The notes below the pieces were generated by a model. The model was not told the DNA's origin. It did no database searches and saw only the letters and a program-made list of their open reading frames with translations. DNA of 64,000 bases from a virus. Position numbers and translations under genes: made by a program. The number at the start of each line of letters is the position of its first letter. The stretch's first letter is position 1. This document shows, piece after piece, positions 14,578-63,675 of the stretch. The DNA lies in IMG/VR virus record IMGVR_UViG_3300044846_001842, positions 16,107 to 80,106 of that record, one strand, 5' to 3'.

Positions 14578-16725
14578 ATGGGACAATTTTATAAAGGAAC
14601 AGAAGCTACATTTATTGATGATGCAATGTTTAAACTTCCTTATGAATTAATGGGAGTTGTCATTGACAAAAAAGATAAAGCTATAGATGATACTATTGGG
14701 CAATACCAAGGGTATTTAGATAAGCTAAAAGCTGATGTTTTAGAACAAGACTCTCCTGAATTAAGAGCCACTATAAAACAGTATCAAGATAAAATTGATA
14801 CTGCTGTGCAAGGCATTATGGCAAACCCTATGGACTATCAAAAGTTTACTCCAGGTATAACTACTCTTGCAAGAGATATATCAAACACTTGGAGTTCTAC
14901 AGGTAAAGTAGGAACTATGGAAGCTAATAAGAAAAAGGTTCTAGCTGAGTATGAAGCTATTGATAAACTCCATGAAAAAGATCCTAAAGCTTATGATGCT
15001 AATTATGTGACCTTAGAAAAACAAAAAATACTTTCTAAGTACAAAGGAGTTCAGTGGAATGAAGAAAAACAGAAAGCTGAAGGCACTCCTGATATAGCAT
15101 CTTCTTACTATGGTTTAGAGGTAGATGAGAAATGGTTAGCACACATGAAAGCTACAGGAGTAGAGACAGTACAAGATACACCAGGAGGACCATGGGTATA
15201 TAGACACAAAGATTCTAGAAAAACTTTAACTCCTTCAGAAATCCAAAATGCTTATATTACTTATGCTCAAACAGATACAGCAGCTCAAGCTGCTTTAGAA
15301 AGAAGAAAATCATTAGGAGATCCTGACTTTCAAGATGTAGGATTGAATTCTATTTATATGAAAGTTCCACAACTTGATGCACAAGGTAAGGGAGTTTATG
15401 AAAATGGGGAATTAAAAACTAAAACAGTTCTAAACCCTAATAACTTTTGGGCTAAAAGAATGTCTTTAGCATCTCAAGTTTACAAACAAAATGATACTAG
15501 TGTTGAAGATACTCTTTCTAATAATGAAGGGTACTGGAAACAATGGCAAAGAGGAAATGAATTAGAAGATAAAGCTAAAGAAAACATAACTGCAGAGACT
15601 GTAGATAGCACTCTTATTACTGCTAGAGATGCAACTGTTAAAGCTTTAGGAAGTAGTTGGACTGCTTCTACTCAAAAGGTAAATTCTACTGTAACTAATG
15701 CTTTAGAGATTGCAAAACAGTTAAAAATAACTGGGCCAGAATCTTTGAAACAAATAAAAAATGGTAACTTTACTGCTTTAAGAAAAGCTGGAGCTAATAA
15801 AGACGGAATGTCTGCAACTATAGATCAATTAGAGAAATCCTATAAAAGAGCAAATGCAGAAAAGCAACTTACTAATGCAAGTATTCAGGCTTTTAAAGCA
15901 ACTCTACCTGCTAACTTACAAAAGGTAATGGATAAACCAGGTTGGGATAATGATAAAGCTCTTTCAGATGCTTATTCACTTTACACTGAAAAAGCAAAAG
16001 CTGAAGGAAGATTTAATCAAAACAATGAAGAACTTCAGGTTACAAGTATGAATGGTATGGACATGGATAAAAATACTAAAGAATCTTTTAAAAAGGTTAT
16101 AGTAGATGACATGGACAAGTTCCAATTCAAATTAGATGAAAGTAAAATTTATGAATCTGCTAGTGGAACTAAATTAGTATTTAGTAAAGACCCATCTAAG
16201 ATAGGGAAAACAGGAACATATCAAGGACAAAATGTTACTTTTGTAAAGAATACAGGAATACACTCTTTATCAGAGTTGCAACAATTAGGGATTGTTTCTA
16301 AAGCAGTTGCTACAGTAAAAAGTGGAACAACAGCTAAACCTGTAGTTAAATACAGTTTCTTTGAAAATGGAAAAGAAGTAGGAATGGATGTAGCTGAAGA
16401 TACTTTTGGAGTAGTTAAAAACTTAGATAATAGTGGACAAGCTAATATGGGAGTTCATATTCAAATGGGTAAGAATACTTTAAGAGCAACTTTAGGAGTT
16501 AATCAAATAACAAGTCCTCAAGTACAAAATTGGTTTGCAGCTAATGATGATAATCTTTATTTAGAAAATCAAAGAACTAAAACTAACTGGGGAGTTATTG
16601 ATATGACTAAAAAGGATGGTGGACAAGTTTACAGAGCTAACAAAGGAAAGTATTCTATTAATGGAGTAGAAAGAACAGATGCTGCAAGTATTAAAATAAT
16701 TCAGCAAGCTGTAATGGGATTATAA
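14578..16725 (+). CDS. Virion cargo-type structural protein, 715 aa
   Basis: The N-terminus (KGTEATFIDDAMFKLPYELM, then helices with KDKAIDDTIGQYQGYLDKLKAD) matches the helical start seen in crAss-like cargo proteins. Coiled-coil content is high through about residue 140 and again at 440-520; the end is beta-rich. No enzyme motif was found. The gene lies six bases after the previous cargo gene and just before the RNA polymerase gene, so it likely forms part of the packaged and injected protein set. Confidence 0.55.
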   Translation: MGQFYKGTEATFIDDAMFKLPYELMGVVIDKKDKAIDDTIGQYQGYLDKLKADVLEQDSPELRATIKQYQDKIDTAVQGIMANPMDYQKFTPGITTLARDISNTWSSTGKVGTMEANKKKVLAEYEAIDKLHEKDPKAYDANYVTLEKQKILSKYKGVQWNEEKQKAEGTPDIASSYYGLEVDEKWLAHMKATGVETVQDTPGGPWVYRHKDSRKTLTPSEIQNAYITYAQTDTAAQAALERRKSLGDPDFQDVGLNSIYMKVPQLDAQGKGVYENGELKTKTVLNPNNFWAKRMSLASQVYKQNDTSVEDTLSNNEGYWKQWQRGNELEDKAKENITAETVDSTLITARDATVKALGSSWTASTQKVNSTVTNALEIAKQLKITGPESLKQIKNGNFTALRKAGANKDGMSATIDQLEKSYKRANAEKQLTNASIQAFKATLPANLQKVMDKPGWDNDKALSDAYSLYTEKAKAEGRFNQNNEELQVTSMNGMDMDKNTKESFKKVIVDDMDKFQFKLDESKIYESASGTKLVFSKDPSKIGKTGTYQGQNVTFVKNTGIHSLSELQQLGIVSKAVATVKSGTTAKPVVKYSFFENGKEVGMDVAEDTFGVVKNLDNSGQANMGVHIQMGKNTLRATLGVNQITSPQVQNWFAANDDNLYLENQRTKTNWGVIDMTKKDGGQVYRANKGKYSINGVERTDAASIKIIQQAVMGL

Positions 16726-37991: not shown

Positions 37992-38843
37992 CTAAAAAAT
38001 GTATCTAATTGTTTCTAAGGGAAAATACTTAGAATATAGTTCTTTAAATTGTTGAATTAAACTGTTTTTGAATTGCCATTGGTATCTAATATTATCAGCA
38101 GCATACTGAGAGTTTTTAGACTCTTGAATTGTAGGTTGCCAAAGGTAATAGTTAACATCAGCTTTATTCCTTGAAAATTGATTTACATTATAAGTCATAA
38201 ATATACATTCTGACTTAAAATCAATGCCTTGTAGTTGTTTAAATAATTCCTCATAGTCTTCTAACCAAGTAGGATAGTAAACTATAGGACTGAAATTTAT
38301 ATGCACTTCCATTTTTGTTTGAAGTATAGGTATCATAGCAATTCTATCAGCTATGCTGTCAGTATTGGGTTCTAAGATACTTGATATAAATTGGGGCATA
38401 AGACTTACTCTTATTCTATGCTTACCCGGAGTCAAGTTATACTTTTGTAGCTTAAACTTTGTTGGGTATTTGGTGGCAAAAGTTGTTTTCAGTTTGTATT
38501 GTGTATTGAAGAAATCAAATACCTGTTGCCAATTATAGTGTTTACTATGTAAAGGCACATCAGTACTACATCCTATATCAACACAATAATAAGTGTCATC
38601 TACTTGATTAGGTTCTTTGGGCCAAGGCTTAGTGTCTACCCAGTCATAAATAGATCTTAGAATTTGCTCTGTGTTTTCATTGATATAAACCTTGTCATGA
38701 TTATACCTACCTACATAGCAATTATGAGTAAGAATGTTATTAGCAAAGTAATTTTCATTATCTTTTACAGCAAAGTTATAAAAAATTTTGCTATTTTTGT
38801 TGTCTAAAATCTTACTGATTCTCGTAATTTTTAATTTTCTCAT
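37992..38843 (-). CDS. Split intein C-half fused to C-extein of spore photolyase-like radical SAM enzyme
   Basis: Residues 1-41 are a C-terminal intein half with own ATG: block F (FYNFAVKDNENYFANN) and block G ending ILTHN, followed by C42 as the +1 nucleophile. Residues 42-283 are the C-extein, which resembles the spore photoproduct lyase family: CYVGRYN after the cluster motif, STDVPLHSKHY, KHRIRVSLMPQ, and a late strand INFSPIVYYPTWLEDY. Joined to the N-half it yields about 281 residues of enzyme. Likely DNA lesion repair. The gene is separated from the N-half by a plus-strand HNH gene. Confidence 0.8.
   Translation of the reverse strand: MRKLKITRISKILDNKNSKIFYNFAVKDNENYFANNILTHNCYVGRYNHDKVYINENTEQILRSIYDWVDTKPWPKEPNQVDDTYYCVDIGCSTDVPLHSKHYNWQQVFDFFNTQYKLKTTFATKYPTKFKLQKYNLTPGKHRIRVSLMPQFISSILEPNTDSIADRIAMIPILQTKMEVHINFSPIVYYPTWLEDYEELFKQLQGIDFKSECIFMTYNVNQFSRNKADVNYYLWQPTIQESKNSQYAADNIRYQWQFKNSLIQQFKELYSKYFPLETIRYIF
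38792..38799 (+). promoter_or_regulatory. Candidate -7 element for the HNH gene
   Basis: Plus strand TATTTTTG fits TAnnTTTG and lies 46 bases before the HNH ATG at 38845, inside the C-intein coding region on the other strand. There is no clear TTTG 20 bases upstream, so support is weak. Confidence 0.25.
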
Positions 38844-38844
38844 T

Positions 38845-39675
38845 ATGTTAATTTTTTACTCTCACATTGAAGCAGGAAAACATTTTAAATGTGATCCAAG
38901 GACTGCAAAAAACAATCTACTCAATACCCAATACGTTATTGACAAATCTTCAGAGTATAACCCTAATACTTTATTTAGAACCTGTAAAAAATGTGAAAAT
39001 AAATACACTTCTTCTAAAGGTAGGGCAGGATACTGTCCTAGTTGTAAAAATAAAATTTCTAAAAAAATATTAAATAGAGTTTGTAAAATCTGTAGTATTA
39101 CTGCAACTAATATCAACCCTGTGTCTTTAAAATCTTGTATTTGTAAAAAATGTTCTCAGACAGGGATAGGAAGAAAGCTTCAAGCAATTTTTATTTCAAA
39201 TTTACAAACAGGTGTAAACAACTCTAATTTTGTACATGGTAATTCTACAATAAAAATATGGCAAAACAGTAGATGGGTAAAACTAAGAAAGAATTACCCA
39301 AATAAAGTTTGTTTAAAATGTGGTAAAACAACTAATATACATTTACATCACATAATTCCTCAATGTTTATTACCTCATGAAGAAAAGTTTAACTTAGATA
39401 ATATAATACCTTTATGTTCTAATCATCACAAAGAACTTCATCATCTTCAGTTAGATATTGTGCTTCTACCCAGCCTTTACCTACAATATAAAAAGGATGC
39501 TCAGCAGTTACAACAATTTTTTTACCTTCAACCTCAATTTCAATCCATGAGTTTGACTCCCTTGAAAAAATATGATGACATTTCTTTGGTTCAACTAACT
39601 CCAAAGAATTATTATAAGATAATACAAAAGTGTCATCCTGAATTTTTTCAACAGGAATTTGCCCATTTGGTGTAG
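38845..39675 (+). CDS. HNH homing endonuclease, antisense between split-intein halves, 276 aa
   Basis: The HNH core is at about 156-195: CLKCG zinc knuckle, H168-H169, N186 and the closing H194-H195. Two more Cys-rich zinc-binding units precede it (C47/C50/C64/C67 and C80/C83 with C98/C100/C103), likely for DNA binding. ATG at 38845 is chosen over 38788 because the earlier codons are just the antisense of the C-intein. It starts one base from the divergent C-intein ATG. The last ~85 residues (39419-39675) are read on the strand opposite the N-intein, so both strands code there. Confidence 0.75.
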   Translation: MLIFYSHIEAGKHFKCDPRTAKNNLLNTQYVIDKSSEYNPNTLFRTCKKCENKYTSSKGRAGYCPSCKNKISKKILNRVCKICSITATNINPVSLKSCICKKCSQTGIGRKLQAIFISNLQTGVNNSNFVHGNSTIKIWQNSRWVKLRKNYPNKVCLKCGKTTNIHLHHIIPQCLLPHEEKFNLDNIIPLCSNHHKELHHLQLDIVLLPSLYLQYKKDAQQLQQFFYLQPQFQSMSLTPLKKYDDISLVQLTPKNYYKIIQKCHPEFFQQEFAHLV

Positions 39676-39817
39676 AAATTAGTGTGCCTTTTTCTACACA
39701 ATATGATTTCATACACCCTCCTAAACAGCCATAAATAAAATTAGGAGAAATAGCATCACTGCTTCTCCCATTATCTCTAGTTACTAGGGTTTTAGTCTTT
39801 TGTTTCTTGATTTCCAT
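39419..39817 (-). CDS. N-extein of spore photolyase-like radical SAM enzyme fused to split intein N-half
   Basis: Residues 1-39 are the N-extein ending in FIYGCLGGCMKSY, part of the [4Fe-4S] radical-SAM cysteine motif. Residue C40 starts the intein: block A is CVEKGTLISTPNGQIPVEKI, block B is VVTAEHPFYI with the TxxH pattern, and the half ends at D132 with TAG. The 93-residue length fits a Hint N-half. Trans-splicing with the product of 37992-38843 would rebuild the cysteine motif as C-x3-C-x4-C and a ~281-residue enzyme. The start overlaps the upstream gene by 26 bases. Confidence 0.8.
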   Translation of the reverse strand: MEIKKQKTKTLVTRDNGRSSDAISPNFIYGCLGGCMKSYCVEKGTLISTPNGQIPVEKIQDDTFVLSYNNSLELVEPKKCHHIFSRESNSWIEIEVEGKKIVVTAEHPFYIVGKGWVEAQYLTEDDEVLCDD

Positions 39818-44637: not shown

Positions 44638-46413
44638 AATTCTGAAGCAGAATAATTCATAGGAACTACAAATTCATAGTAGAAAGGAACTTCTCTGATA
44701 GTTTCTCCACTATAAATGTTAGCAATATGATTAGTAAAATAGGAAGTCATAAGAGTTCCTATCATAGCTGCTGTATGAGAACTTTGCTTCATAGTACAAG
44801 GGGCTTCCTCCACTATTGAATCATGAAACAAATGGTCTTTTTCATACCTGTCAGCATTTTCCGGAGTAACACAGAATATCTGTAATTGCTCTATCTCTAG
44901 TCTACCATCTATGAAGATTGGAGTCACCCCTGGTGGAGCTATACTCCAGGACTTCTTCCAGACATGAAACAATGCATTTCTTGCCTCCATGTTATCAAAA
45001 GCAGAAAACATAAAGTAATGTGTCATTGTATTCATATCAATTCTCTCATTGAATGTAGATATAGGAGTATTACAAAAAGAGTTTACAACTCTTGCTACTG
45101 CTGTTACTTTAGCTTGACCTAAGTCAGTCTGCATAAATAATTGACCACCTAGATTATGGTCTTCTACAGTATCAAAGTCATAGAGGTTAACTCTAAAACC
45201 TATCTTAGTTAAGAAATAACATAACCAACTCGACGTATCTACATATTTCTATATAGGTCGGACTATATCTTCACCCTTATAGGGTGGGGGACACTTTTTC
45301 ATTAAGGGACTAACCTTAATTACTTCCTGTTATTAAGCCACATTGCTGTGGCTCAGGTAGTCTCTGAACCTTCCATCTCTGATGGCTTGGCTGCTGATTA
45401 ACAACTTAGTATAAGCTTTTTTCTCACTTATATACCTTAGTGGCTTTAGTCTTCCAGCAATTCATCCCCTCCACCAATAGTATTACTACTATTGGGGGCA
45501 GTTATAACTTGGCTCATTTTATTACAACTTTTACATTTTATCCTTGTTTTCCCATTTCTAAATCCATTATAAGAAGTAGACAGAGATAAACATTTAGGAC
45601 ATTGTATCCTTTCTTTTTGTTCATATTCTGCAATTACATTTAATTTTTCATATTTTCTTTGTAGAAAAATTGAAGCTTCCTTGTAAATATATTCTCCAAA
45701 TAATTTAGAGACAGAGTAAGAACTTGTGTATAATTTATAATAATCCAAAGTTCTTAAACCTATTCCTTTAAAAGAACAAGTCAAATTTACTGGAATTCTG
45801 TTATCATACAATTGTTTAATTATTTCTGTTATAAGAGTAAAAGATGTTCCTCCTATTTCAATTTTTAAATTAAAAAGTTTTTGAGAATACACACTCCCAT
45901 CTCCATCAAAATAACCTCTTATGAAATGGTTCATAAATTGTAAAGGAATATGATTAAGAGAAAGTAATTCCCTATTAACAGAAGATTTTAAACAAAAAAC
46001 TCCCTTTTCTAAAAGATCTTTTTTAAGTTTTTTAGAAGTGCAATCTAGCTTATATGCTTTTGCATGAGATTTTCTTATTGTAAAAAAAGGAAAAATTTGA
46101 ACAAGTTTTTGTAAAAGCATTAAATCTTGTTCATGTAAAGTGATACCACAATTATTATTAGCAGAACAAACATACCCATCTGCGTAAAAAAGTCCTAACA
46201 AATATGCTTTTTCTTGTGTATCAAGTTGTTGTAATTCATTTGCATATTTCATATTTTCTAAGTTTTAGAATACAAAAATACAAACTATAAATGAGATATA
46301 CAAATATATCTACCAATACCACCTGCACCACCCACCATACACACTTCATTATTTCTAGGGAACCAAGGGGCATCTTTAAATCTAGACTGTTGGGTTGTGC
46401 TATTTTGTCTCAT
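44634..46413 (-). CDS. E1-like ThiF-family adenylyltransferase, split by a group I intron (exons 46413-46312 and 45233-44634)
   Basis: Exon 1 encodes 34 residues ending in the Rossmann ATP loop GGAGGIG (28-34). Exon 2 restarts with SSWLCYFLTKIGF and continues YDFDTVEDHNLGGQ, the acidic and Asn/Gln residues that bind ATP-Mg and define ThiF/MoeB/E1 proteins. SAFDNMEARN and a late PCTMKQSSHTAAM (candidate Cys) follow. The join restores frame, giving 233 residues, short for an E1, like PRTRC-type ThiF. It overlaps the JAMM gene stop by 14 bases. It would adenylate the C-terminus of a ubiquitin-like protein; which one is inferred. Confidence 0.75.
45446..46252 (-). CDS. LAGLIDADG homing endonuclease inside the E1 intron, 268 aa
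   Basis: Two LAGLIDADG helices are present: YLLGLFYADG (17-26) and FIRGYFDGDG (110-119), each with the catalytic acid, so this is a monomeric two-motif enzyme. The C-terminus adds a zinc finger (C218/C221/C240/C243), likely for DNA contact. It is free-standing: exon 1 runs into a stop after eight codons. A TTTG-N20-TATTTTTG promoter lies just upstream. It would cut intron-less E1 alleles and drive homing. Confidence 0.85.
   Translation of the reverse strand: MKYANELQQLDTQEKAYLLGLFYADGYVCSANNNCGITLHEQDLMLLQKLVQIFPFFTIRKSHAKAYKLDCTSKKLKKDLLEKGVFCLKSSVNRELLSLNHIPLQFMNHFIRGYFDGDGSVYSQKLFNLKIEIGGTSFTLITEIIKQLYDNRIPVNLTCSFKGIGLRTLDYYKLYTSSYSVSKLFGEYIYKEASIFLQRKYEKLNVIAEYEQKERIQCPKCLSLSTSYNGFRNGKTRIKCKSCNKMSQVITAPNSSNTIGGGDELLED
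46273..46304 (-). promoter_or_regulatory. Bacteroidota-type promoter for the LAGLIDADG gene
   Basis: The minus strand has TTTG (46304-46301), a 20-base spacer and TATTTTTG (46280-46273), matching the Bacteroidota -33/-7 pattern. The expected start site is about 14 bases before the ATG at 46252. The same layout is found before the GIY-YIG gene in the helicase intron. Confidence 0.55.
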
Positions 46414-55727: not shown

Positions 55728-58081
55728 TTTCAATTCTAGTTTTAAAGTTAGGAAATCTTATATAATTGATCTTAGATTGATTCAAGTTTTCTACAGCTTT
55801 TTCAAGCCATTTTTCATCTTGAGTGCCTTCAGATACAACAATCCAAATGTGAGCTTCATGCCCTGGTCTGTATCTAATGATCCTACCTCTAGGATGTTAT
55901 TACTCTTAGATTTTACTTGAGTAATCTTCTCATATTTCTATGAGGATTGGACTATATCTTTATTTGCATATTCCCAATAGAAACCGACTCTTTTACCATT
56001 TGTTTTAATGGCTTTAGCTATTGTAACTGCTCCTGTTTTCTTTTGGGCTTCTGTTACACTATCAAAGGTCTCTATTATATTTTTATTAATATCTAATTTA
56101 TTTACTGGTACACTACTGTGATGGAACTTGCCTGTTTTGCCTTTCATACAATTATTAGTTGTTTGTCTTTTAGATAGAGCTATTTTCTGAGCTTCAGTAA
56201 CATTCCAAGAAGGTTTAGTAGGATGCTTATCAAAAGAGTCTTCAAAATATCTCCAAATGAATTTTTTAAAAGTCACCCTTCCATACTTACCTTGACAACA
56301 ACAAGAAATTTTATTATTATTTTTTCTGTTTCCTGTAACTTTTTCAGCGGCATCACTAATAGAATCAAAAATTTGAATTAAATTTCCTTTTAAATCAAAT
56401 TGCTTAACTTTTTTAATTCTTTTTTCTAATTGTTCTTGAGACCACTTATGTCCAACACTTCCAATTCCTCCTTCACAAGTATTTACTAAGTTTTTTCCTT
56501 GCTGTCTAAAAAAACCAATCCAAAAAATCTCTTTTTGCAATATTTCTTCAAGGTTAGTAGACTCATCTATAAGTTTTATTATAGGTTTGTTTTCTAAAGA
56601 TTTTAGCCAAGAAATTCTGTGACATTGTTGTCCTTTTTTTGTTCTTGTTTGCCAGTGTGTTTTTAGTCTTTCTTTAAGACTTTTAGAGGTGTAACCAATG
56701 TATTTTAAATCTTCTTTATGATAAAGACCATAAATTTTATATTTCATATTCTTTGTATTTGATACAAAGATATGGTATTAGATATTAATATGCAAATACT
56801 TCCCGTTTCCACCTCAGTTATCAACTTGGGTGTACCATACTCAGTTCAACAAATTGTTGCTTTTCTGTAGTCTCTGCACCTTCCACAAAATATGGCTTGG
56901 CTCAGGATTGCCTTATCATTTCTGACTTAGGTTTCCCTGAATTAAAGAAGTTTATAGAGGACAGGTATGTTTATCCTCTGAACCAAATCTTTTTCTTTAG
57001 AGTTAAGTTGTCCAATAATACCTGAATCAACTCCGGGAAAGTTATGACCTTCATTTACTGCCTTTACACAAGATAATCTATTGATTCTTTCTGCTTTGAA
57101 AGCATCATAAGAATCATTACTAGACTTAGAATGGTAAAAAGTAGGACATACATCTTCAGCTTGCTCTATGTTACCACAAAAGATAATAGTTCTATCATCT
57201 TCAGGGATAACTTTGTTTAGCAAAAAGTGGATTACTTCTGTTTTACTAGGAATTTTGTAGATAAACTGCATTCTACCTAAGATAGCAAACTTAAGTTTAG
57301 CTTTACCTTGTGGAGTTTGATCAAACATAGCTCCTTGAACTCTTTTATTCCAATAAGTATAGCATGCTGCTTCAGTAGTCATAAAAGGTTTAGCTTTAGT
57401 ACCACCTGGAATGTTCTTGGTTGTAGCATCTAAAGGCACTGTAATAACAGTAATCTTATATGGTGCTACAAAACCTAATCTTACAGCTTGGTCTAAGGTA
57501 AGTTCATAAACAAGTTTAACCCCTAAGTCAGATAAGATTTGTCTTTTAACCATATCAGTAGGAGGAGTTGCAGTAAGTAACACAATGTTTTCTACTCCAT
57601 TGTTTATAAAGAACTCTGAAGATAACTCTGTGATATTATGGCCTTCATCAAGGATAGCCAATGGAAAATCATATCCTTTGACTTTAGATGCAGAAGCATA
57701 ACAAAGTCTTTCAGTATGTTTCCACACATTCTGAGCTTCCCATTTAGTAAACTCTTCTGCCCAATTCTCATCTCTTAGCTTTTCAGTAGGTACTAAAAGA
57801 GCTGCATGATGGTCATTTTTAGGATCAAAGTAAAATTTAGCTAATTCAACTGCTACTCTAGACTTACCGGAACCTGTAGCCATAGCTATCATGCCACCAT
57901 TATTTCTAATAACAGCTTGTTTGGCTTCATCCTGGACTCTTTCTCTAACTTTATTTACAAATTCAGTACTTAGTTCCGGATCTGTAATTTTGTCTCTTAA
58001 AGCTTCTATTTTGTCAATATAGGTTAGAATTGATTTTGGGTTTTGAAAGAGTTCCTCCAACTCTCTAAAATACTTTCTCAT
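55711..58081 (-). CDS. SF2 DNA helicase, split by a group I intron (exons 58081-56973 and 55888-55711)
   Basis: Exon 1 has Walker A (AMATGSGKSR, about 66-75), the DEGHN box (145-149), LTATPP (motif III) and a second RecA lobe, ending at VQR-I. Exon 2 begins by completing Ile and reads GRIIRYRPGHEAH, restoring motif VI (QRIGRxxRxxxGH), then a 45-residue end. Lengths 1109 and 178 bases join in frame to 428 residues. Likely a DNA/RNA remodelling helicase of the replication block. The unspliced frame would stop nine codons on, without the motif VI arginines. Confidence 0.85.
55938..56747 (-). CDS. GIY-YIG homing endonuclease in the helicase intron, 269 aa
   Basis: The GIY-YIG module is at the start: KIYGLYH (4-10), KYIGYTSKSLKERL (with R27), and a later E in LQKEIFWIGFF. 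The rest has repeated NUMOD/IENR-like helical DNA-binding units (IQIFDSISDAAEKVTGN and IETFDSVTEAQKKTGA). Its last codons (KDIVQSS) overlap the 3' strand of the intron's P7 helix. A TTTG-N20-TATCTTTG promoter lies upstream of its ATG. Confidence 0.85.
   Translation of the reverse strand: MKYKIYGLYHKEDLKYIGYTSKSLKERLKTHWQTRTKKGQQCHRISWLKSLENKPIIKLIDESTNLEEILQKEIFWIGFFRQQGKNLVNTCEGGIGSVGHKWSQEQLEKRIKKVKQFDLKGNLIQIFDSISDAAEKVTGNRKNNNKISCCCQGKYGRVTFKKFIWRYFEDSFDKHPTKPSWNVTEAQKIALSKRQTTNNCMKGKTGKFHHSSVPVNKLDINKNIIETFDSVTEAQKKTGAVTIAKAIKTNGKRVGFYWEYANKDIVQSS
56765..56796 (-). promoter_or_regulatory. Bacteroidota-type promoter for the GIY-YIG gene
   Basis: The minus strand has TTTG (56796-56793), 20 bases, then TATCTTTG (56772-56765), about 18 bases before the ATG at 56747. 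It has the same spacing and boxes as the promoter of the LAGLIDADG gene. Confidence 0.55.
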
Positions 58082-63050: not shown

Positions 63051-63516
63051 TAGTGGAGGTGGGGGAAGTTGAATCCCCGTATTTAGCATTAGAGTTAAAA
63101 AATTTTATACAGCTTTATTTGTTTGTGATATTCAGTTCCTAATAAACAAATAAACATCGGAACTATTTCAAATTACTATTTAATAAGTATCTTTTAATTC
63201 TGCTGAAATAAGGCAAGAATAGGGCCAACTGATTCTGGTAAAACCAGCAGTAAGCCTCCACCATCTAGTTTTATCCCAAACTAGCAAAAGGGAGTATTAA
63301 CTTAACCTAAGTTATGGTCCTAATCTTTGGCTTAGGCAGCCACAGCTAAATCTACTTCCTTTGAAGTAGACATCAAGTTGTGAACAACTTGCATATTAGC
63401 TTGTATTTGAGCATTCTCTAAAATGTTGCCATTTATTGAAATTTCACCTTAGTTTACAGTTATCTCTCTGGCTGAATTTTTTAATCTTAGATGCTAAAGC
63501 AAAACCCGGCACCCCC
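63051..63516 (-). ncRNA. ssrA: tmRNA (ssrA), phage-encoded
   Basis: Ends pair as an acceptor stem: 5' GGGGGTG (63516-63510) with 3' CACCTCC (63061-63055), then A-CTA in the CCA position. The T arm is GGGGA-TTCAACT-TCCCC. A long P2 helix is exact in three parts: TTTAGCAT/ATGCTAAA, TTAAAAAATT/AATTTTTTAA and CAGC/GCTG. The reading frame in the middle ends GAT-TTA-GCT-GTG-GCT-GCC-TAA (D-L-A-V-A-A-stop at 63334-63332), a proteolysis-tag end. A likely resume codon is GCT at 63412, giving 26 tag codons. The D-like loop is less standard. It rescues stalled ribosomes. Confidence 0.75.
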
Positions 63517-63575: not shown

Positions 63576-63675
63576 TAGTCAGAACAGGATTCGAACCTGT
63601 AACTTTAGCTAAAGCCCTCGAGGATTACGGTTTAACCTACCGCTGCTTTGCGTCTACCAATTCCGCCACCTGACT
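63576..63675 (-). tRNA. tRNA-like RNA, class II (Leu-type arms), anticodon unclear, overlong
   Basis: The acceptor stem pairs AGTCAGG with TCTGACT, the D arm is GCGGAATTGGTAGACGC as in tRNA-Leu, and the T arm is ACAGG-TTCGAAT-CCTGT with a clear T loop. The middle is 49 bases, about 15 more than a normal class II tRNA. CGGT-AGGTTAA-ACCG is the only good stem-loop there, but its loop has no U33, so no anticodon can be given. A variable-arm hairpin CTTT-AGCT-AAAG is present. It could be degenerate, hold a small insertion, or serve another purpose. Confidence 0.6.

Follow-up and report, generated by a model that had tools for sequence, protein, structure and literature searches.

A split intein with an antisense HNH endonuclease gene fractures a spore-photoproduct-lyase-family gene in phage DNA

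We analysed a 64,000-nucleotide stretch of viral DNA (positions 16,107 to 80,106 of IMG/VR record IMGVR_UViG_3300044846_001842; hereafter the window). Our analysis confirmed that a gene of the spore photoproduct lyase (SPL) family, a radical SAM family, is fractured here by a split intein, and that an HNH endonuclease gene lies antisense between and across the two halves. Comparison with related loci shows that the intein and the endonuclease are both constrained where they share bases. We assign a probability of roughly 87% to the reading of the locus as a split intein with an antisense homing HNH gene under dual-frame constraint, for which protein splicing, DNA cleavage and an endonuclease promoter are predicted from sequence.

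A lyase-family gene broken at a single codon

The fractured gene occupies the minus strand as two separate genes. The N-half (39419-39817, 132 residues) has its own stop codon at 39419-39421, and the C-half (37992-38843, 283 residues) has its own ATG at 38841-38843. All coordinates in the original prediction, which was made from the letters of the window alone, proved correct, including those of the plus-strand open reading frame (ORF) at 38845-39675, its overlap of 257 bases with the N-half and the single base between its ATG and that of the C-half.

The N-half comprises an N-extein of 39 residues (39701-39817; MEIKKQ...GCLGGCMKSY) and an N-intein of 93 residues plus stop (39419-39700), the latter with Cys1 and the block B motif TAEH. 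The C-half starts with a C-intein of 41 residues (38721-38843), which ends in ...NNILTHN and has homologues among other C-inteins, and continues into a C-extein of 242 residues plus stop (37992-38720) that begins with CYVGRYN. The N-intein matches the intein N-terminus model TIGR01445 with 33.1 bits (curated cut-off 24.5) and the C-intein matches the intein C-terminus model TIGR01443 with 18.0 bits (curated cut-off 15.6). The splice residues Cys1, TxxH (TAEH), HN and Cys+1 are all present, the C-terminal junction reading ILTHN followed by C, and the joined intein parts are homologous to the NrdJ-1 and gp41-1 inteins in the PDB. Both splicing regions of a split intein, encoded by separate genes, are therefore present. 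A transposon-like or intron insertion was rejected, since no Rfam intron lies at the site and both halves match intein models.

The exteins match adjacent parts of the SPL family model TIGR03886 (346 positions): the N-half covers positions 62-95 and the C-half positions 92-346 (E 1.1e-46), and positions 1-61 have no match. The halves had been predicted to form a split intein in a radical-SAM-type gene, and the intein and family models bear this out. The C-half also exceeds the cut-off of the Pfam SPL model. Its TIGR03886 score of 159.6 bits falls below the equivalog cut-off of 437.6 bits; we take the window gene to be a relative within the family, a placement for which the score does not imply the same enzyme identity. 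The N-extein supplies two of the three radical-SAM-type motif cysteines, and the third is the first residue of the C-extein, Cys+1 of the splice junction. Judged from the radical SAM motif, the enzyme motif would therefore be complete only after splicing. In all 38 viral relatives of the window gene the N- and C-exteins are fused with zero gap; compared with these, the window carries a 980-bp insertion between ...CMKSY and CYVGR.... The predicted ligated product matches uninterrupted homologues. The term fractured gene applies to this arrangement, in which a conserved enzyme is interrupted at a single codon and an endonuclease gene stands free between its halves.

The antisense HNH gene

The plus-strand ORF (38845-39675) encodes 276 residues with zinc ribbons, an HNH core and a C-terminal tail. 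It matches three PHROG HNH families (phrog_8048, 8446 and 144) at E values of about 4-6e-8, in agreement with its earlier assignment as an HNH endonuclease, and these matches end near 39447-39460. The motif blocks lie at 39340-39360, 39397-39417 and 39421-39444; both the HNH motif and zinc-binding cysteines are present, and the H, N and H residues are invariant across 18 aligned HNH proteins. The gene starts divergently from the C-half in the arrangement CAT-T-ATG (38841-38847), with the C-intein ATG on the minus strand and the HNH ATG on the plus strand, one base apart. In its N-terminal part (38845-39150), the window protein is without the N-terminal zinc finger that its relatives have, and it contains a 36-residue Cys-rich insertion (KNKISK...CICK) that is absent from them.

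At its 3′ end the HNH gene runs over the N-intein for 257 bases (39419-39675), so that its last 84-85 codons lie antisense to N-intein codons. In this register, third positions of the N-intein are second positions of the HNH gene. The HNH motif NHHKELHH (39421-39444) and the last N-intein codons (DEVLCDD) use the same bases, as had been noted from the sequence. The earlier claim that the HNH gene shares bases with a half of the Hint domain holds for the ORFs over all 257 bases. For the recognisable HNH domain it holds over about 30-45 bases only, because HNH profiles extend no further than 9-14 codons into the overlap. Beyond these, ~70 codons form a conserved tail that matches no profile and is supported by comparative evidence alone.

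The element recurs in one register and moves between diverged genes

With the window HNH protein alone as query, we found no match at E 1e-5 in viral contigs, GTDB genomes or INPHARED phages. Relatives were obtained by a C-intein alignment scan and then an HNH alignment scan. The former yielded five loci (L069, L070, L073, L091 and L096) in which members of a second subfamily of the gene show this layout. The latter yielded 37 full matches in IMG/VR (L149-L185), part of them on the same contigs as the five loci; two further contigs with weak HNH matches only (L186 and L187) were not counted. None turned up in GTDB genomes scanned with an HNH alignment, and the antisense layout was not found in INPHARED phages. 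A search of viral contigs for the intein-end pattern HN/CY[..]GR[..]Y returned five random matches, none of them in SPL genes.

Wherever a locus could be read on both sides, the N-half, antisense HNH gene and C-half follow in one order, at the same insertion codon and in the same relative register. The halves have a separate stop and start in the 34 loci so read, as in the window. Inserts across the family measure 965-980 bp (965-968 bp in the relatives, 980 bp in the window), the HNH stop lies 4-25 nt from the Cys1 codon and the overlaps span 257-293 bases. In 32 of 34 alleles the HNH gene and the C-half have overlapping start codons (CATG). The subfamilies differ in their cysteine spacing, which is C-x3-C-x4-C in that of the window and C-x3-C-x2-C in that of L069. 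Among the 80 best matches in the second subfamily, 77 genes were readable at the site, of which seven are occupied and 70 empty. Uninterrupted genes, which the original prediction had proposed to look for, were thus found both here and among the 38 relatives of the window gene. No relative carries a continuous intein frame; each shows either an empty site or the same split with an antisense HNH gene (37 contigs). The layout had been called unusual; this understated the case, since it belongs to a conserved family in 37 contigs and is not a lone curiosity.

Besides this presence/absence polymorphism, the family shows horizontal movement. Identity of the HNH core correlates with that of the C-intein (r 0.94) and N-intein (0.915), and less with that of the C-extein (0.70), and the HNH and extein trees have only one of 23 splits in common. 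In one pair of loci (L167 and L173), the HNH cores are 99.3% identical and the C-exteins 72.4%. Because the HNH gene tracks the intein halves while the extein trees conflict, the intein halves and the HNH gene travel together across diverged host genes. The element thus moves as one unit, as homing predicts.

Two observations concern SPL genes more widely. Phages in IMG/VR commonly carry SPL-family genes (one subfamily alone gave 323 confirmed matches), but these are absent from INPHARED phages. One contig has a weak HNH-like stretch (L068:1501-1881; E 1.8e-4) with four stops some 400 bp downstream of an intact SPL gene; it may be the remnant of a decayed element.

Dual-frame constraint in the overlap

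The overlap register is the most stop-rich of the three antisense registers. Among the window's confident genes it carries 0.10 stops per codon, and no antisense run of at least 85 codons occurs. Synonymous recoding of the window N-half left the HNH frame open in about 0.35% of trials with window codon usage and in 1.5% with family codon usage; for eight other alleles the figure was 0-0.35%. The HNH frame nevertheless crosses the N-intein without a stop in 26 of 26 distinct alleles.

Synonymous mismatch was calculated as codon differences at identical amino acids over all pairs of alleles. As the alleles are related, pair counts are not independent, and a column bootstrap and a subset of deep alleles served as guards. 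Mismatch is 0.08 in the N-intein overlap, compared with 0.23 in the C-intein, 0.28 in the HNH core, 0.42 in the C-extein and 0.53 in the N-extein. Among eight deeply separated alleles it is 0.15 in the N-intein overlap versus 0.32 in the C-intein (bootstrap P 0.0008). Within the N-intein, mismatch is 0.41 in codons 1-8, which lie outside the HNH ORF, and 0.06 in codons 12-60. Codon positions 1, 2 and 3 of the N-intein vary by 0.131, 0.156 and 0.094 in the overlap (P for position 3 at least as variable as position 2, 0.007-0.009). Position 3 is the most variable in every control, as in the C-extein (0.30, 0.21 and 0.49). Read by HNH codon position, variability in the overlap rises from the second through the first to the third position, the order that HNH coding predicts. 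With synonymous sites depressed in both frames and no stop in any of the 26 alleles, the HNH frame and the N-intein frame opposite it prove to be conserved jointly. The third positions of the N-intein being least variable, the HNH frame stop-free and synonymous variation reduced, we infer that both strands are under selection at the protein level. On this comparative evidence the HNH tail is selected as a protein, and the N-intein is also still a conserved Hint domain.

Several observations weigh against this reading. The strength of the selection tests comes from the family, with one window-type allele known; for the window allele alone, both the contrast between N-intein and C-intein (bootstrap P 0.08) and the codon-position inversion (P 0.2) point in the same direction but weakly. 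The HNH ORF falls below the Pfam gathering cut-offs (HNH_2). The F-block of the C-intein carries Asn at a residue that is usually Asp in inteins. AlphaFold2 predictions for two HNH alleles, based on only 18 sequences, gave a tail with a predicted local distance difference test score below 50 in both.

The unconfident tail fold would also suit an ordinary fractured gene whose endonuclease was inserted in reverse, lost its stop and now trails over the N-intein as a passive, unused antisense tail. So would the end of the HNH profile matches near 39447-39460, and the conservation of N-intein block B in its own right, with which its antisense would be partly conserved. A passive tail would, however, leave the third positions of the N-intein free, yet these are the least variable, and synonymous variation collapses exactly at the HNH stop. 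Nor does it account for a frame open in every allele in the most stop-rich register, given recoding probabilities of 0-0.015 per allele. That the pattern merely reflects a recent spread is excluded by the controls, the C-intein and the HNH core, and we consider a passive tail improbable.

Scarcely credible is a decaying element, in which an intein that was once continuous had its middle destroyed and the lyase gene was left broken and without function. The two separate ORFs and the sub-threshold Pfam match would fit such decay. However, the same split recurs in 37 contigs with the splice residues intact, and the exteins are conserved as proteins, their codon positions 1 and 2 varying less than position 3; the enzyme is therefore evidently still selected and must be rejoined.

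Candidate control sequences within the coding regions

The endonuclease promoter probably lies within the C-intein coding sequence. A putative -7 box, TATTTTTG, occurs there on the plus strand (38792-38799). In Bacteroidota the -7 box has the form TAnnTTTG (PMC6847099, PMC9723704); relatives of the window phage include Flavobacterium phages, Fpv1 among them. The motif occurs on the HNH strand in 24 of 26 alleles, with 7.5 expected from recoding (the alleles are not phylogenetically independent), and lies 34 nt before the HNH ATG; in the window its distance to the C-intein end is 44 nt. Synonymous mismatch in C-intein codons 12-31 is 0.07, against 0.31 and 0.36 in the flanking codons. The first ~22 HNH codons are likewise depressed (0.11 versus 0.3), possibly owing to control sequences that serve the C-half.

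Both these regions show synonymous constraint where no second frame is claimed, and non-coding constraint must therefore exist in the element. This could mean that the N-intein, too, is constrained at the level of DNA or RNA, by structure, regulatory sequence or memory of the cut site, and not by HNH protein coding. Constraint in the overlap, however, spans ~85 codons, ends at the HNH stop and keeps the HNH frame free of stops, and the order of variability among codon positions fits HNH coding. A purely nucleic-acid explanation of the overlap therefore seems very improbable.

A model for the element

The 980-bp locus is best explained as a compact mobile element that pairs a split intein with a homing endonuclease gene, the latter running antisense through the gap between the intein halves and on into the N-intein coding sequence. 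From the minus strand would come an N-extein-N-intein protein and a C-intein-C-extein protein, whose association and trans-splicing would produce a lyase-family enzyme of 281 residues. The HNH endonuclease from the plus strand would cut intein-less alleles at this codon, allowing the element to spread by homing. Its last ~85-90 codons are antisense to the N-intein, with purifying selection on both proteins there; its promoter probably lies in the C-intein coding sequence, and control signals for the C-half probably lie in its own 5′ end.

In a stronger version, which we hold tentatively and at a little under even odds, these parts would form an obligately entangled cassette: the N-intein would bear the C-terminus of the endonuclease, the C-intein its promoter, and the 5′ end of the endonuclease gene the control of the C-half. 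If so, most mutations silencing the endonuclease would harm the intein too and, through it, the host enzyme, and this would slow the decay that homing endonucleases usually undergo once fixed. The overlap would then serve to shield a selfish gene from loss.

Other elements in the window

A group I intron (RF00028, 89 bits) lies at 45239-46252 on the minus strand, with a LAGLIDADG ORF at 45446-46252. At 55938-58081 (minus strand), a GIY-YIG/NUMOD1 endonuclease ORF adjoins a seemingly shortened helicase ORF (56942-58081), possibly another intervening element. Two RNA genes lie on the minus strand further on: a transfer-messenger RNA at 63051-63516 (Rfam RF00023, 54.3 bits against a gathering threshold of 47) and a ~100-nt tRNA at 63576-63675. 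ARAGORN reports neither.

Comparison with known systems

The endonuclease of an intein is either a domain in the same reading frame or, where the host gene is fractured, encoded by a gene of its own. Fractured genes were reportedly described by Dassa et al. in 2009 as conserved phage enzymes interrupted by split inteins, the endonuclease gene standing free between the halves. The locus in the window shares with them the conserved phage enzyme, the split intein and the position of the endonuclease gene. It differs in that the endonuclease is antisense, overlaps the N-intein by 257-293 bases across the family and is under selection together with it in both frames. In a census of about 23 other split-intein loci in IMG/VR, the endonuclease was on the sense strand or none was visible. 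A 362-kb phage contig (L009:6730-9101 and L063) carries an intact SPL gene together with canonical fractured genes. In its RNA-ligase-like gene, the N-half ends in ...EKLDG before C and the C-half resumes with SLIQVYW; NrdA and further intein N-termini lie on the same contig. The RNA-ligase and NrdA genes of this phage have the sense-strand layout, unlike the locus in the window.

The gp41-1 and NrdJ-1 split inteins (PDB 6qaz, 6riz and 8ubs), with N-parts of about 90 and C-parts of about 40 residues, have, by sequence, the same Hint fold as the intein described here. What sets the latter apart is its host gene, of the SPL family, and an N-intein that doubles as endonuclease coding sequence.

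Overlap between a homing endonuclease and another coding or self-splicing sequence has been described in two other settings. The ShiLan element contains a hidden, out-of-frame HNH gene in a phage methylase (PMC11855218). Like the locus in the window, it is a case of a phage homing HNH gene having bases in common with a second frame; in ShiLan, however, both are on the same strand and no splicing domain is involved. Antisense homing-endonuclease genes also occur in group I introns of myxomycete ribosomal DNA, namely I-DsqI and Dir.S956-2 (PMC9548176). There, too, the endonuclease is antisense to the self-splicing element that it mobilises, but it lies in peripheral loops of RNA introns in nuclear ribosomal DNA, whereas in the phages it crosses the coding sequence of a protein-splicing domain. 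We found no published antisense endonuclease across an intein splicing domain, in a search that did not take in the founding fractured-gene paper, which might picture one.

In the family of the window's element, the endonuclease gene crosses the splicing domain in antisense orientation; dozens of phage contigs share this layout, in which the register is conserved and both frames are under selection. The family is a clear example from nature of dual coding in which two proteins of a single mobile element are encoded antisense to each other, and it yields a set of new short split inteins. It bears on the origin of split inteins and, compared with inteins whose endonuclease is an in-frame domain or a separate gene, makes it testable whether entanglement with the splicing domain prevents the decay of a homing endonuclease.
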